From Verrucomicrobiales bacterium (lineage in GTDB: Bacteria; Verrucomicrobiota; Verrucomicrobiia; Limisphaerales; UBA9464): DNA of 64,000 bases. Below the pieces are notes generated by a model. That model had not been told where the DNA came from and searched no databases. It was given only the letters and a program-made list of their open reading frames with translations. Of the stretch, positions 7,356-18,237 are shown in pieces (within the stretch, counting starts at the first letter, position 1; each line of letters starts with the position of its first letter). A program made the position numbers and the translations under genes. The DNA lies in assembly GCA_016793645.1 (NCBI GenBank), contig JAEUHD010000185.1:1-64000 (forward strand). The letters run 5' to 3'.

Positions 7356-7479
7356 GGACTGCTTTCGTTGACAGCCGGCGCCCATTCGGACGGCATCGGT
7401 CCATCGCAAAGGGATCCGAAGGGTGTCCGTGCGAATACCTCTTGTGCGGTTTTGGAAGGAGCGGTTGTTACTGGATAGA

Positions 7480-10400
7480 ATGACGGCCACCGACTCGCAG
7501 CTCTTGAACCGATACGCCGGGGACCGGTCGGAGGATGCCTTCTCCGAACTCGTCCGGCGTCACCTCGATCTCGTCTATTCCGCCGCCCTCCGGCAGGTGG
7601 ATGGCGACAACGCCGCCGCAGCCGATGTGGCCCAGGCGGTCTTCACCGACCTGGCCCGCAAGGCCGGGCACCTTACCTCCCACACCTCCCTCACCGGCTG
7701 GTTGTACACCAGCACCCGTTTCCTGGCCGCCAACGCCCGTCGATCCGAAGAGCGTCGTCGCCTGAGGGAACAGCAGGCCCTCGCGATGAACACCCTCTCC
7801 CCCGCCCCCGAAGGCGAACCCGACTGGGACCGGCTGCGTCCGGTGCTCGATGATTCCCTGGCCGCCCTGTCCGAACAGGACCGCGAGGCCGTTCTATGGC
7901 GCTATTTCGAACGCCGCTCACACGCGGAGATCGGAACCCGACTGGGCATCAGCGAGAATGCCGCGCGCATGCGGGTGGAACGGGCGCTGGAAAAGCTGCG
8001 GACCCACCTGACGCAGAGCGGAATCCCATCCACATCCACGGCCCTCGGACTCGTCCTCAGCCGCCAGGCCGTGCTCGCCGCGCCTGCGGGACTCTCCGAC
8101 CGGATCTCCAAAAACGCCGTCACCCAGGCCGGGGTGGTCGGACGGATCCCGGCTTCCCTGGGGCGTCGCTGGCTGGTCCCCGCGGTGCTGGGGGTGTTGA
8201 TCCTTTCCCTGGGTTCCCTCTGGATTCCGGTTTCGCGGAGTCTCTTTTCTTCCGCACCGCGGGGTCCGGTTGCGCAAGGGGACGGTCTTTCCGCACCGGG
8301 ACGAGGCGCGGGTCTTTCCACGGCCAATGGCGCTTCTTCGGCGTCCCCGGGAACTCCGGACTCTGGTAACGCCGCCGCGGCCGCGGGGGACTCCACCGAC
8401 GGGGAACCGGGAGCCCGGACGCTCACCCTGCTCGTCCTCGCGGCGGACAGCGGGAGTCCGTTGCCCAACATCGGGGTTTCGGGCCATTCCTCCGGCGGTG
8501 CCCATGGGTTTCGGAAGGAGTTCATCACGCTCCGGGATGGAACCTGCCGGATTCCGTACACCGATACCGATGCGGAACTGGAGCTGGTCACCCACGCGGA
8601 CGGTTATGCCGATACCCGGATGGTCTGGAATCCTCAGCGGGGCGAAACGATTCCCGCACGCTATACGGTTCGATTGGGGCGACCGGTCACACTGGGGGGA
8701 CGGGTGCTCGATTCCGAGGGACGTCCGGTTTCCGGCGCCCGGGTCGGATTCAATCATGAGGAGGATCCAGGGGCCGCCCAGCGTCCGGAGAGCCACGAGT
8801 TTTTCTGGATCGAAACCCGGACCGGGGAGGATGGACGATGGGAGATCCGCCGGATTGCGGAGGATATGTTGCGCCGCCTCTACGGCTCGGCGCATCACCC
8901 GGACCATGTGGACTCGCCGTTGCTGTTCGTGGGCCGGGACGCATCCGCGGAGAAGGCCCTGCGTGCGGGCACGCACGTTTTCACTCTCGGGCGTGCGGTT
9001 GGGGTTTCCGGTGTGGTCGTGGATGCCAATGATCAACCGGTGTCCGGGGCGAAGGTTGCCGTGGGCCGGGTGGGGGATTCCGCGCGCCGGGAGGGCACCT
9101 CCGATGAACAGGGGGCGTTTTCCATCCAGGGACTGGCTCCAGGGCGTACTCTGATCTCCGCCCAGGCCTCCGGATTCGCCGCGACGACCGAACCTCTGGA
9201 ACTTTCCGCGGCGACCCCCCCTGTCCGGCTGGTGCTACGGTCGGGCGCGGAATTGCGCCTGCGCGTGGTCGATCGAACGGGAACGCCGGTTGCGGGAGCC
9301 TACGCCTGGCTGAACACGTTCAGTCCAACCGGGGAGCCCAGCGCGCAGGCCGAAGTGGATCTCCGATCCGATGCCGAGGGGCGCGTCGTCTGGACGGAAG
9401 CGCCGGACACCACCCTGGAGTTCGATGTGTATGCCAAGGGCTTCATGCGGGTGAACGGCTACCCGGTGCGTCCGGACGGCAAGGAACATGTCGTCACCCT
9501 GCCTCCGGCCCTCACGATCTCGGGGAGGGTCACGGATGCCGACACGCATGAGCCGATCGGGAAGTTTCGCGTCATCACCGGCTGGCCCCCGCAGAATCCG
9601 GCGCAGGGAGGAGGCAGCCCATCCTGGAGTCCGCTGGATCGATTCTGGCTGAACTTCTCGGGAGGATCCTATCGGCACACGTTTGAGGAGCCGGTGATCG
9701 GGGGTATCGAAAATCCGGGCTATGTCTTCAAGTTCGAGGCGGAAGGCTACTCCCCGCAGATCACCCGGGTGGTCGCACCAGACGAAGGGGAGGTCCGTCT
9801 TGACGTGTCCCTCCGCCGTTCGGAAGAGCGGGAGATTACCATCAGCACGCCCGACGGACGCCCCGCTGCGCGGGCGGAAGTGGCCCTTCTCGGACCGGGA
9901 GCCCGTGCCACGCTGTCCGGAGCCACCTTCGAAATGAACAACAGTCCCGGAATGGTCCGGAAGATCACCGACGCCGAGGGACGGTTCAAACTGCCCGGGG
10001 ACGACGCGCTGACTCGCATCGTGGTCGTCCACGAATCCGGGTTTGCCGAGGTCCCGCCGGCCGTTTCCGAAACCTCCTGGCAACTGCTGCCCTGGGGGCG
10101 GATCGAGGGACGATGGATGTCTGGTGACCGTCCCGTGGTGGACGGGGAATTGCTCGTGCAGGCGGGTCCCGGACCGTCAGATGGACTTCAATTCGATTTC
10201 TCAACCTACCGACTGAAGACGGATGCCCAGGGGCGTTTCTCCCGGGATCGCGTTCCGCCGATCCGGCTGAACCTCGTGCGACTGACCCGACAGGATCGGG
10301 GCAATGGCCAGACCAGTTGGTCCCATGGCCGCGCCCAAGTCGTCGAGGTCAAGGCGGGGGAAGTCACGGAAGTCCTCATCGGAGGCCGTGGATATTCGGT

Positions 10401-10821
10401 CACGTTGACGCCGGTCTGGCCCGCTGGTTCGCAGGCGTCCTCCGGGCTGAGGGTGATGGGCGGAATCCACACCGCGATTCCGGAACCTCCCGCCGAGGCG
10501 GCCGGAAACCCGGAGGCGCTGGCGCGCTGGAGCCAATCAGCAGAGATCCGGGAACTGGCCCTCCGCGCCCGCCATTTCGAGGGGCGAATGCAGGGCGACC
10601 GAATGGTCGTGGACGAGGTCGAGCCCGGCGACTTCATGGCGACGTTGTTTGTACTGAAGGATGCGCCTTCGGGCAGCACTCCGGGGTCGCCCACGGTTCA
10701 AGGCCCGATGCCGGTCTTGATGGGACGGAAGCCGATCCACATTCCCGCCGAACCCGGATCCGGATCCCTGGAACTGGGGGGCATTTCTTTGGAGCCGGTT
10801 GCCCAGCCGGGATCGAAGTAG
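7480..10821 (+). CDS. ECF sigma factor fused to membrane helix and carboxypeptidase-regulatory tail
   Basis: A 1113-residue fusion. Residues about 10-75 form sigma region 2 (AFSELVRRHLDLVYSAALR, DVAQAVFTDLARKA) and about 130-178 sigma region 4 with its helix-turn-helix (RSHAEIGTRLGISENAARMR). A transmembrane helix follows near 229-250 (LVPAVLGVLILSLGSLW). The rest, about 850 residues, is a chain of carboxypeptidase regulatory-like/beta-sandwich repeats of the type GRVLDSEGRPVSGARVGF, VSGVVVDANDQPVSGAKV and ISGRVTDADTHEPIGKF. The topology predicts a cytoplasmic sigma domain tied to a large extracytoplasmic sensor without a separate anti-sigma factor. I chose ATG 7480 because the sigma homology starts there; GTG 7423 would add 19 unrelated residues. 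Ligand and regulon are unknown. Confidence 0.88.
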   Translation: MTATDSQLLNRYAGDRSEDAFSELVRRHLDLVYSAALRQVDGDNAAAADVAQAVFTDLARKAGHLTSHTSLTGWLYTSTRFLAANARRSEERRRLREQQALAMNTLSPAPEGEPDWDRLRPVLDDSLAALSEQDREAVLWRYFERRSHAEIGTRLGISENAARMRVERALEKLRTHLTQSGIPSTSTALGLVLSRQAVLAAPAGLSDRISKNAVTQAGVVGRIPASLGRRWLVPAVLGVLILSLGSLWIPVSRSLFSSAPRGPVAQGDGLSAPGRGAGLSTANGASSASPGTPDSGNAAAAAGDSTDGEPGARTLTLLVLAADSGSPLPNIGVSGHSSGGAHGFRKEFITLRDGTCRIPYTDTDAELELVTHADGYADTRMVWNPQRGETIPARYTVRLGRPVTLGGRVLDSEGRPVSGARVGFNHEEDPGAAQRPESHEFFWIETRTGEDGRWEIRRIAEDMLRRLYGSAHHPDHVDSPLLFVGRDASAEKALRAGTHVFTLGRAVGVSGVVVDANDQPVSGAKVAVGRVGDSARREGTSDEQGAFSIQGLAPGRTLISAQASGFAATTEPLELSAATPPVRLVLRSGAELRLRVVDRTGTPVAGAYAWLNTFSPTGEPSAQAEVDLRSDAEGRVVWTEAPDTTLEFDVYAKGFMRVNGYPVRPDGKEHVVTLPPALTISGRVTDADTHEPIGKFRVITGWPPQNPAQGGGSPSWSPLDRFWLNFSGGSYRHTFEEPVIGGIENPGYVFKFEAEGYSPQITRVVAPDEGEVRLDVSLRRSEEREITISTPDGRPAARAEVALLGPGARATLSGATFEMNNSPGMVRKITDAEGRFKLPGDDALTRIVVVHESGFAEVPPAVSETSWQLLPWGRIEGRWMSGDRPVVDGELLVQAGPGPSDGLQFDFSTYRLKTDAQGRFSRDRVPPIRLNLVRLTRQDRGNGQTSWSHGRAQVVEVKAGEVTEVLIGGRGYSVTLTPVWPAGSQASSGLRVMGGIHTAIPEPPAEAAGNPEALARWSQSAEIRELALRARHFEGRMQGDRMVVDEVEPGDFMATLFVLKDAPSGSTPGSPTVQGPMPVLMGRKPIHIPAEPGSGSLELGGISLEPVAQPGSK

Positions 10822-13765: not shown

Positions 13766-13819
13766 ATTTTCCGGGGAGCTGTCCGGTTGCCTCTGCGTGC
13801 GGCAGTAGGTGGGGTGAAC

Positions 13820-15445
13820 ATGGATCCTGATTTGTCGGCAGACCGCGAGTTGGTGGGGTGTTACGCCCGGGAGGGCTCCGAGGCGGCGTTCCGCGCACTG
13901 GTGTCCCGGCACGTGAATCTCGTGTTCGGCGCGGCGCTGCGGCAGACGGGGGATCCGGGAATCGCCGAGGAGATTACCCAGAATGTGTTCGTCGCGCTGG
14001 CGCAAAAGGCCCCCCGGCTCGCCGGTCACGAAACGCTCGCGGGCTGGCTGCATCGCACCGCCATTTTGGAGGCCAAGTCCCGGTTGCGCTCCGAACTTCG
14101 CCGGCAGCGTCGTGAGGATACCGCCGCTGCACTCGCCCAGATCCAGTCGGCCGGCACGAGCCCCGCCGAAGACCTGTCCCCCGTCCTCGACGAAGGACTC
14201 CTCCAACTCCGGGAGCCCGACCGCCTCGCCTTGATCCTCCGGTATCTCGAGGAGCGCAGCCTTCGCGACGTGGGTCGCGCCTTGGGCATCGAGGAGGATG
14301 CCGCCCGTAAGCGCGTTGATCGCGCCCTGATCCGGTTGGCGGGGTTCTTCCGCTCCCAGGGATTCGCCGTTCCCGCGGGCGCGGGCGCCGCAGTGCTGGC
14401 CCAGTCGTCGACGGTGGCGGCACCGGTGGGACTGGCGGCCGCGGCGTCCCAGGCGGGTCTTGCCGCGGGCACTGCCGGGACCGGCCTTGCCTCCCTTCTC
14501 ACCGTCTCTCTCATGAAACTCTCCTCGCTCCAAACGGCCGGCCTCTGCGCCCTGGTCGTGGCGGCACCGCTCGCGTGGCAATGGAATCAACACCGCGAAC
14601 TGCGCGTTCGGGAGTCGCTGGCGTTCGCTGCGGCGTCTGCGTCTGCCCAGGAGCGCGAGGATCTCTCGGGGCGGATCGGACGCCTCCGGTCGGAACTCGA
14701 CGACGCCCGTGCCCAGTCCGCCGAATCCCGGACGGGACCCGGGGCGCGTCCCTCGGTTGCGCGAAGCGCAGCCGCCGACGTCTATCGTTGGGACGACCAG
14801 TCGCCGGTCGTCCGCGTTCCCAAGGATCTTCTCAAGCGAATCTCCATCCCGGCGGTCACGAGCCGGCGCGGCGAATTGACCGAGCAGATTCGGGTCGCCC
14901 TTCAGATGAACGACACGGAGGCGGCCACCGTGCAGGCATCCATGGACCGGATGCTCGAAGGTGTGCGTGCTGCCGAGGCCGCCGGGATGAAGCCGGTGGC
15001 TCCGAGCTCTGCGGACCTGGACGGAAGAGCGCCGGAGGATGTCCGGGTTTTTGAGGTGTCGGGAGACGCGGAGGTTATTTCGAAGCTTAGAAAAGACATG
15101 CTCGCCGAAGTTCGCCAAGCGCTGGGTACTGATCGGTCTGAGATCTTCCAGCAGGCGCTGGGTTCCTGGATTCCCATGGAGAACGAGGGTGAGGGCGGAG
15201 TGAACAGCGGTTGGGCATTCCTTCAGGGCGATCACCGGATCCAGGTTTACAACACGTCCGGAGAAGCCGATGGCCGGATCATCTGGCTGCGCTGGGGTGC
15301 GACCACATCCACGGGCTCCCGATTCACGTCCACGATCGGAATCGATGAAATCCCGGGTTACCTCCAGCCGCACCTCCAGGACTGGATCGCCGGCGCCCAG
15401 GCCGCGGCCGCGGCATCCCGGGCCGCCGCCATTCGCAATCCCTGA
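13820..15445 (+). CDS. ECF sigma factor with membrane helix and extracytoplasmic tail
   Basis: A 541-residue protein. Sigma region 2 lies near residues 10-85 (AFRALVSRHVNLVFGAALRQ, EITQNVFVALAQKA) and region 4 near 130-180 (LRDVGRALGIEEDAARKRV). A transmembrane helix follows near 235-254 (LCALVVAAPLAWQW), then a coiled-coil-like stretch (SGRIGRLRSELDDARAQS) and a domain from about 320 to 525. The tail pattern (VVRVPKDLLKRISIP) recurs in the next gene, which lacks the sigma part. I preferred ATG 13820 with an upstream GTGGGG; an in-frame TTG at 13787 would add 11 residues. The design again implies a membrane-tethered sigma factor. Signal and regulon are unknown. Confidence 0.87.
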   Translation: MDPDLSADRELVGCYAREGSEAAFRALVSRHVNLVFGAALRQTGDPGIAEEITQNVFVALAQKAPRLAGHETLAGWLHRTAILEAKSRLRSELRRQRREDTAAALAQIQSAGTSPAEDLSPVLDEGLLQLREPDRLALILRYLEERSLRDVGRALGIEEDAARKRVDRALIRLAGFFRSQGFAVPAGAGAAVLAQSSTVAAPVGLAAAASQAGLAAGTAGTGLASLLTVSLMKLSSLQTAGLCALVVAAPLAWQWNQHRELRVRESLAFAAASASAQEREDLSGRIGRLRSELDDARAQSAESRTGPGARPSVARSAAADVYRWDDQSPVVRVPKDLLKRISIPAVTSRRGELTEQIRVALQMNDTEAATVQASMDRMLEGVRAAEAAGMKPVAPSSADLDGRAPEDVRVFEVSGDAEVISKLRKDMLAEVRQALGTDRSEIFQQALGSWIPMENEGEGGVNSGWAFLQGDHRIQVYNTSGEADGRIIWLRWGATTSTGSRFTSTIGIDEIPGYLQPHLQDWIAGAQAAAAASRAAAIRNP

Positions 15446-15451
15446 ACCGCC

Positions 15452-16351
15452 GTGAACCCGCTTCGGAATCGCCTGCTCCTGATCGGTCTCCTGCTCGCCT
15501 TGGGCGGAGCCCTGTGGTGGACGATCCGGAGCCGGCTGCAGGCACGTCGCGCCGCGGTCCTCCAGCAGGAGGCGCTTGCGGCGCATCTCCAGGATCTCGC
15601 GGCTTCGGACCGGGCAAAGTTTGGAACGCTTCGCTCCGAGCTCGACGAACTGCGTCGCACGGCAGCGGCCACGTCGGGGCGCAGTACGGACCCGGTCCGG
15701 GACGAGCGGGAGCCCGATCCAGAGGCCCGCTGGGCCGCGCCACCCGAACATCTGCCGGATTGGAACCCCGCATCGCCCTACGTCTGGATCCCGAAGTCGG
15801 TACTTCCCTCGTTTCCCATCGAACCGTTCACCGACGGGGGAGCCCTGGCCTCCGGCCTGGAGTCGGTCCTCGCCGTGGATCCGGATCGGGAGAAAGCGCT
15901 GACGGTCGCATTGTCCCGGCTCCTGGCCGCGGCGCGCGAACGGGAGTCGGAGGGCGTGATGCTGTCCACCGAGCACCTCCCCGGGATTGCGGACAGACCT
16001 GGGGACAAATTGACCGTGGTGGTTCCAGGGCAGACGGACGACGGAGCCCGGTTGCGCACCGAGGCGGAGCAAGCCCTTCGTCAAAGTCTCGGAGAGGCGC
16101 GCACGGACCTGCTCATTCACTGGGGGAAACGCTGGCTGGAGGAGCAATTTGGGAATCCAGCGGCCGAGCCGAAGGTGTATTCGGTTCTTCGCCACCCCAA
16201 TGATACCTACGCGCTCTCCATCAAGACCAGCGCGAGCTGGATGTCGGTGGATGGCAGCCAGACGTTCATCGACTACGTCCCGTTCCACCTCCGCGCGTGG
16301 TTCACGCCCCTCCAGCCGTCGTCCGCGCCGGCGGCGAAGTCCGGACCCTGA
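15452..16351 (+). CDS. Membrane-anchored paralogue of the preceding sigma factor tail
   Basis: A 299-residue protein starting at GTG 15452, six bases after the sigma gene ends. An N-terminal helix (LLLIGLLLALGGALWWTI) is followed by a coiled-coil-like region (FGTLRSELDELRRTA) and a domain with YVWIPKSVLPSFPIEPF, matching RWDDQSPVVRVPKDLLKRIS in the preceding gene in position and style. The order of parts is that of the sigma protein without sigma regions 2 and 4. It probably arose by duplication and could pair with the sigma tail in the periplasm or compete for its signal; this is inference. No enzyme motif is visible. Confidence 0.75.
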   Translation: MNPLRNRLLLIGLLLALGGALWWTIRSRLQARRAAVLQQEALAAHLQDLAASDRAKFGTLRSELDELRRTAAATSGRSTDPVRDEREPDPEARWAAPPEHLPDWNPASPYVWIPKSVLPSFPIEPFTDGGALASGLESVLAVDPDREKALTVALSRLLAAARERESEGVMLSTEHLPGIADRPGDKLTVVVPGQTDDGARLRTEAEQALRQSLGEARTDLLIHWGKRWLEEQFGNPAAEPKVYSVLRHPNDTYALSIKTSASWMSVDGSQTFIDYVPFHLRAWFTPLQPSSAPAAKSGP

Positions 16352-17724: not shown

Positions 17725-18193
17725 ACGCCCTGCGCCCGCGGCGGCCCAGCCGCGGACGGACTCCAGAACCGCGCGGCAGCGCGGCTCCACCACTGGGGTG
17801 GCTTGGGAAGGGTGGCTGCGGGCTGCACCCGCGGGTGACCTCTCCGACGCACCGCAGTGCGGAGGACCTGCGCCCGTGGAGTCCTCCGTCGCGAAATTCG
17901 CCCCTGGGCGCCAGGGTACGCCCTGGGGACCGCGGCGGCATTGCCGCGGACGGATTCCAGAACCGCGCGGCAGCGCGGCTCCACCTCTGGGGTGGCTTGG
18001 GAAGGGTGGCTTGGGAAAGGTGGATGCGGGCTGCGCCCGCGGGTGACCTCTCCGACGCACCGCAGTGCGGAGGACCCGCGCCCGTGGAGTCTTCCGTCGC
18101 GAAATTCGCCCCTGCGCCCCGGGGTACGCCCTGCGTCCGCGGCGGCCCTGCCGCGGACGGATTCCAGAACCGCGCGGCAGCGCGGCTCCACCA
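17725..18193 (-). repeat. Cluster of large multi-hairpin repeats
   Basis: One partial copy (17725-17793) and two full copies (17811-17985, 18020-18193), inverted relative to those at 6963-7355. In order each full copy has GGGCTGCGCCCGCGGG, CGCACCGCAGTGCGG, a CGTGGAGTC..GTCGCGAAATTCGCC segment, GTACGCCCTGG, GTCCGCGGCGGCCCTGCCGC and AACCGCGCGGCAGCGCGGC. Short copies of GGTGGCTTGGGAAGGGTGG separate them. The motif GAACCTGTCACCCTGTCC follows at 18238. No gene is visible between 17624 and 18380. Confidence 0.88.
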
Positions 18194-18237
18194 CCGGTCA
18201 AAATGGGGCCCGCAACATGCGAGCCCTCCCGGACATT

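Follow-up and report, generated by a model that had tools for sequence, protein, structure and literature searches.

What role could a gene play that repeats the tail of a sigma factor, lacks the sigma part and lies directly behind the sigma gene? Such a gene is found in a stretch of 64,000 nucleotides from a Verrucomicrobiales bacterium (the window, contig C56 of a draft genome of 5.87 Mb). The tailed ECF sigma factor, P1, is encoded at 13820-15445 on the + strand (ATG start, 541 residues), and its sigma-less tail copy, P2, at 15452-16351 on the same strand (GTG start, 299 residues), beginning, as the first-pass annotation had stated, six bases past the P1 stop at 15445. On the evidence assembled below, it is probable that the two genes form an autoregulated ECF operon encoding a membrane receptor split into two halves, the P1 tail being one of them and P2 the other.

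The sigma part of P1 occupies residues 1-185 (13820..14374) and matches Sigma70_r2 (9.1e-10) and Sigma70_r4_2 (4.7e-6) above the Pfam cut-offs, as well as TIGR02937; having regions 2 and 4 only, P1 is an ECF sigma factor. It is followed by an Ala/Gly-rich linker (14375..14518), within a segment modelled at low confidence (residues 185-252), a putative membrane helix (14519..14575, approximately residues 234-252; hydropathy peak, mean KD 1.64 in the window protein) overlapping a model helix at 236-304, a coiled coil within this model helix (14576..14731; heptad mean Z 2.49 over 42 proteins) and a C-terminal domain recognised by its similarity to P2 (14783..15442; the tail-type copy). P2 consists of a putative membrane helix (15470..15526, residues 7-25; KD 1.83), a coiled coil (15527..15679; heptad mean Z 2.37 over 42 proteins) modelled with the preceding segment as one unbroken helix, 3-76, and a C-terminal domain (15743..16321; the P2-type copy) for which model pLDDT is mostly >80. 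In the AlphaFold2 models, helices and strands succeed one another similarly in both domains, the mean pLDDT being 81 for P2 and only 66 for P1, a poor model. A Pfam search of both proteins gave no family above cut-off for the P1 tail or for P2; DUF4381 (0.053) and GspM (0.012) were considered for P2 and rejected, since both lie below the Pfam/NCBIfam cut-off and cover the helix and coil only. For the fold of the P2 model there was no PDB match at E <0.001 with Foldseek and none with Z >=5 with VIA-align, which does not imply a new fold, and a profile search of PDB sequences with the domain returned chiefly coiled-coil matches. The named relatives of P1 are metagenome-assembled Verrucomicrobia.

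The likeness of the two proteins had earlier been judged by eye, as a shared order of helix, coiled coil and domain without sigma regions in the gene at 15452. It is confirmed by BLASTP between tail and P2 (E 2e-9, 23 % identity) and by the Pfam sigma matches, which are present in P1 and absent from P2. Local alignment scores exceed those of shuffled sequences by 16 s.d. for the whole tail and by 9.3 s.d. for the domain alone, and because of the latter value the likeness amounts to more than a common helix and coiled coil. The profile-profile comparison proposed as a check, with lack of similarity as the refuting outcome, bore the likeness out: it aligned 43 tails with 43 P2 proteins over 270 columns with a probability of 99.9 % and E 2e-33, pairing VPKDLLKRISIP with IPKSVLPSFPIEPF. 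Each kind also has its own invariant residues, W324 and R332 across 44 P1 proteins and G214 and R217 across 44 P2 proteins.

Of 320 genomes from the same order of Verrucomicrobia, 56 matched a P2 profile; in the regions fetched and annotated, 50 of the 67 matching ORFs sit directly behind a tailed sigma gene on the same strand. The other 17 comprise six matches by helix and coil only (L150, L151, L160, L161, L167 and L168), five ORFs cut by contig ends (L030, L155, L157 and, in L130, both ORFs of a second pair from which the contig end has removed the sigma), five at broken loci (L137, twice, L139, L159 and L162) and one one-chain fusion (L125). The reverse search with the tail profile yielded 120 matches in 49 of 313 genomes of the order, adjacent to each other on 53 contigs and single on 11; these 11 include six contig ends (one checked), one contig where P2 was found by annotation, three broken or short frames and one BlaR1-type chain. 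Among the 313 genomes there was no intact tailed sigma of the P1 kind, away from a contig end, that lacked P2: the pairing is obligate. In most relatives the genes overlap, with the sigma stop and P2 start sharing an ATGA-type sequence in 31 of 49 pairs (the start-picking rule prefers ATGA where present); in the window pair, with its gap of 6 bp, there is no such overlap. In an all-against-all comparison of the pair loci, the pair itself was the only feature generally conserved. In one subclade, genes that we take to be pyrB-like adjoin it on the opposite strand.

A phylogeny of the pair, likewise suggested in the first-pass annotation, placed the 43 tails and 43 P2 proteins on two sides of a single branch (SH-aLRT 99), after near copies and broken genes had been left out (L025, L146, L148, L113, L116 and L115; for the domain-only test and the outgroup tree, L147, L120 and L118 as well). 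With the domain columns only, a quick free search gave two changes between the kinds, and constraining the tails to one clade raised lnL by 9.55 (p-AU 0.70); the addition of sigma-less outgroups gives no clear order of the deep branches. One old duplication fits these trees best, and a single origin of tail and P2 is favoured, not proven. Distances among tails and among P2 proteins are correlated (r 0.91; 0.80 with the sigma distance removed), the maximum in 2000 permutations being 0.18; linkage alone could produce such parallel trees. P2 is under purifying selection in the relatives, omega being 0.17-0.50 in six of seven close pairs and 0.64 in one nearly identical pair. As a separate observation from close pairs, dS is far lower in the sigma part than in the tail of the same gene (0.15 vs 1.06 for L152/L153 and 0.18 vs 0.60 for L029/L144), as if sigma parts had been exchanged or homogenised.

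Upstream of the sigma gene, at 13780..13805 on the + strand, lies an ECF-promoter-like element, TGTCCGG-N13-CGGCAG, recognised by a de novo dyad search, a regular expression and conservation within the subclade. In the de novo spaced-word search of 41 upstream regions, TGTC-N17-GGCA and TGTC-N16-CGGC occurred in 22 regions each, against 3-5 in shuffled sequences, and the remaining 19 carry variants, seen by eye, such as TTTTCGGTTT-N-GCGGCAG. A loose regular expression recovered 37 of the 41 pair loci (shuffles, mean 0.2; coding stretches, 1/42; other tailed sigmas, 3/46), however, it was drawn from the same sequences and the de novo count is therefore the fair one. The strict pattern is present at the sigma gene in 18/18 subclade genomes, and a conserved promoter of ECF-like geometry is thereby predicted for the P1-P2 operon. 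Its 34 hits in these 18 genomes comprise the 18 sigma operons, one second sigma copy and 15 sites elsewhere; the reversed pattern gave 11, so that no further target beyond the sigma loci rises above the control and none is claimed. A shorter pattern has three exact hits in the own genome: at the P1 operon, before a tailed sigma in contig C365 and inside a gene. The sigma in C365 (L041) is HEAT-tailed, and the element precedes it at an equal distance, a hint that the two sigma factors may belong to one circuit or form a cascade. In another genome (L287, G154:C190), the focal sigma is present a second time, at a contig end and behind an identical promoter.

The domain also occurs outside the operon. 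In 387 genomes drawn from the phylum, the P2 profile matched 98, many by helix and coil only; matches of this limited kind, frequent across the phylum at large, were set aside when P2 proteins were counted. Around solo domain genes from other orders no sigma match was found at any of 20 loci, within stretches of 3.7-8 kb, hence the domain is not tied to sigma factors in general. At two of these loci (L207 and L218) two such genes stand in tandem. Solo genes outside the order at L208, L209, L211 and L215 adjoin STAS-like genes, judged by eye, with three in a row in one locus.

More telling are two proteins in which both kinds of domain are joined in one chain. A BlaR1-type protein (G061; Peptidase_M56, E 7.4e-31), whose gene adjoins one that looks BlaI-like by eye, carries two domain copies in its C-terminal part, and a protein of 514 residues with a signal-peptide-like start, by eye (G109; the fusion at L125), carries two as well. 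Scored with the domain profiles, the first copy of G061 gives 47.4 bits with the tail and 28.6 with P2, and the second 38.0 and 49.1; in G109 the corresponding values are 70.4 and 56.8, and 59.7 and 81.7. In a tree computed with these fusions (four outgroup rows and the L138 and L158 pairs left out), both first copies join (96) and are nearest to the tails, while both second copies are nearest to P2, on long branches. Solo proteins outside the order, tandem genes included, lean towards P2 (10 of 13 scored higher with its profile), and a P2-like score alone is therefore weak; what is telling is the tail-like score of both first copies. Tail-type and P2-type copies (A and B) thus look like two specialised halves, and when they are joined in one protein A precedes B, just as in the operon. 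Their fusion permits a Rosetta-stone argument for contact between A and B, and for contact outside the cytoplasm, where BlaR1 holds its sensor; the fusions are the best evidence that the halves would touch and for their probable extracytoplasmic place.

The suggestion in the first-pass annotation that P2 may heterodimerise with the sigma tail consequently has indirect but strong support, from obligate pairing, translational coupling, one likely ancient duplication with parallel trees, and the one-chain fusions. Of the two roles then offered, decoy or sensor, the latter is favoured because the domain is found C-terminal to an M56 module in the BlaR1-type chain and to a signal-peptide-like start in the other fusion. 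The former fits poorly, as P2 is almost devoid of a cytoplasmic part: its membrane helix begins on average at residue 3-4 and, provided that it spans the membrane, P2 could hardly bind sigma or RNA polymerase but could bind the tail. No anti-sigma family matched P2, and it has no recognisable cytoplasmic sigma-binding part. The helix of P1 is only moderately hydrophobic (mean KD 1.60; 53 % of 43 proteins >1.6), and Lys/Arg residues are commoner on its C-terminal side (1.77 vs 0.86 per 15 residues), a charge distribution that by the positive-inside rule would point to a C-terminus inside, against the proposed topology. Other tails in the own genome bear AhpC-TSA and CarboxypepD_reg domains, whose usual site is outside the cytoplasm, and this was counted in favour of an extracytoplasmic tail.

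With these points in mind, the following course of events can be proposed. Each protein would contribute a single membrane helix, a coiled coil and one sensor half, A in P1 and B in P2, and P1 alone would bear in addition the sigma factor, on the cytoplasmic side. Produced together, they would pair at the membrane through their coiled coils and sensor halves, and within this complex sigma would be held inactive or inaccessible. A signal outside the cytoplasm, read by the paired halves, would alter the complex and free the sigma factor, most likely by proteolysis close to the membrane helix; an RseP-type M50 protease is encoded in the genome. The free sigma factor would then act on its own operon through the predicted TGTC-N16-CGGC promoter, whereby both halves would be renewed and the switch reset.

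The same two genes can be read differently. P2 might be a brake without any sensing role, a tail-only copy which is induced with sigma, swaps into P1-P1 dimers and blocks sigma release or shuts the response by negative feedback. The predicted placement of both proteins on one autoregulated transcript, the coiled coils in both and the lack of a sigma part in P2 would all suit such a brake; nevertheless we regard it as unlikely, since P2-type copies form an old lineage of their own with their own conserved residues and their fusion behind tail-type copies suggests a fixed A-B unit rather than a competitor for A-A pairing. It is less probable still that the sigma factor regulates P2 like any other target, P2 being a separate envelope protein that shares the domain and is kept adjacent because sigma switches it on. 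The sole known target of ECF41 sigma factors is indeed a neighbouring gene, in the part of the source consulted (PMC3426412), and the domain does stand alone in other orders, at the 20/20 loci free of sigma matches; however, a target has no need to resemble the tail, and the overlapping genes, strict linkage and A-B fusions speak against this reading. A selfish or accidental tandem duplication without joint function, for which the tandem sigma-less copies at L207 and L218 and the few copies in another tail family could be cited, is very improbable for a P2 that is old, never lost in the intact loci seen and held by purifying selection. Against the split receptor itself it may be said that most other tailed sigma factors have no sigma-less copy, and such tails can therefore work alone.

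The nearest known kinds are fused sigma/anti-sigma proteins and the membrane-tailed groups ECF48, ECF52 and ECF53, going by the sections covered of PMC8999054, PMC5826349 and PMC8103513. As in these groups and in IutY (ECF243), for which proteolytic release has been shown (PMC8999054), sigma, membrane helix (putative in P1) and extracytoplasmic part would follow each other in one chain. The zinc-finger anti-sigma domain of ECF48, ECF52 and ECF53 is, however, absent from P1, which besides sigma has no Pfam match at E up to 1, its tail domain is unrelated to any Pfam family, and the second gene copying the tail without sigma sets it apart from all four as described in the portion of PMC8999054 consulted. 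ECF41 sigma factors are controlled by a C-terminal extension, as is proposed for P1, and resemble it in a promoter with TGTC in the -35 region, but that promoter is TGTCACA-n16-CGTC, in contrast to TGTCCGG-n13-CGGC here, and neither a membrane helix nor a tail copy is mentioned in the part of the description covered (PMC3426412). The SnoaL-like domain that forms the C-terminal tail of ECF41 is matched by neither P1 nor P2, with hits considered up to E 1 (Pfam). With BlaR1/MecR1 (M56), the likeness is that in one BlaR1-type chain the M56 module is followed by both copies of the domain; there the halves lie in one chain beside a BlaI-like repressor (by eye), whereas here they are on two chains and wired to sigma, and P1 and P2 lack an M56 match (Pfam), so that the sensor domain alone is common to both. 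In the literature searched, as far as the consulted parts of the sources extend and with the main ECF classification lying outside it, we met no sigma factor accompanied by a second protein that repeats its tail without the sigma part, and we do not claim that none is in print.

The arrangement has parallels, nonetheless, in the large family of tailed ECF sigma factors of the own genome, which share the plan of sigma, linker, helix and coil and differ in their tail domains (AhpC-TSA, CarboxypepD_reg and HEAT among them). One of these lies within the window itself (7423-10821; L044:1424-4822), 1132 residues long with a carboxypeptidase-regulatory-like domain in its tail; the window further contains three 82 nt direct repeats spaced by ~200 at 17736-18218, with a pair of 130-nt repeats. 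Unlike P1, these factors have other tail domains, and only two others are followed directly by a sigma-less helix/coil gene. Such a gene was found at 5 of 46 further loci for tailed sigma factors, 13 of them in the own genome and 33 spread over eight others; one locus is cut by a contig end, and one gene appears twice in the set. At L233 (Z 51.5) and L226 (Z 16.1) it matches the tail of its own sigma beyond doubt, and in neither tail domain was a match to the focal domain seen. L042, the second case in the own genome, is likely to be another tailed sigma with a copy of its tail (pairwise Z only 1.5; profile E 1.5e-9 with five sequences), and at L008 pairwise comparison did not demonstrate a domain match between the downstream helix/coil gene and the tail. 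The layout of tailed sigma and sigma-less tail copy thus recurs, by sequence comparison, with tail domains unrelated to the focal one. In the L233 family, four adjacent pairs were seen by eye among the 76 genomes with a match; as the copy is occasional there, the focal family is the one in which the partner became fixed. Related layouts were also noticed. At L251 (G054:C59) an untailed sigma gene overlaps a free-tail gene by four bases, as though the fused protein had been divided in two. The loci L175, L181, L184 and L187 hold a three-gene version of the plan: behind an ECF sigma without tail come two genes for helix, coil and domain, of which, by eye, the first has a pilin-like CVNNLKQIG motif and the second an NTF2-like end.

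These observations invite a wider view, which we advance tentatively and with somewhat more doubt than belief: the A-B unit may be a portable envelope sensor of Verrucomicrobia, undivided in a BlaR1-type receptor and in a secreted protein, and divided over two genes in the sigma operon, with half A joined to a membrane-held sigma factor and half B as an obligate partner, and the layout of tailed sigma and sigma-less tail copy may have been invented several times in the order with unrelated sensor domains. Long-tailed sigma factors are among the least understood ECF regulators; mechanisms have been described for 11 of at least 26 extension-bearing ECF groups, with the other 15 remaining for study, according to the section of PMC8999054 covered. 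Since a partner for one such tail can be named from sequence alone, together with its naturally fused forms and a predicted promoter, two genes and one reporter would suffice to put the control of an entire tailed-sigma family to the test.
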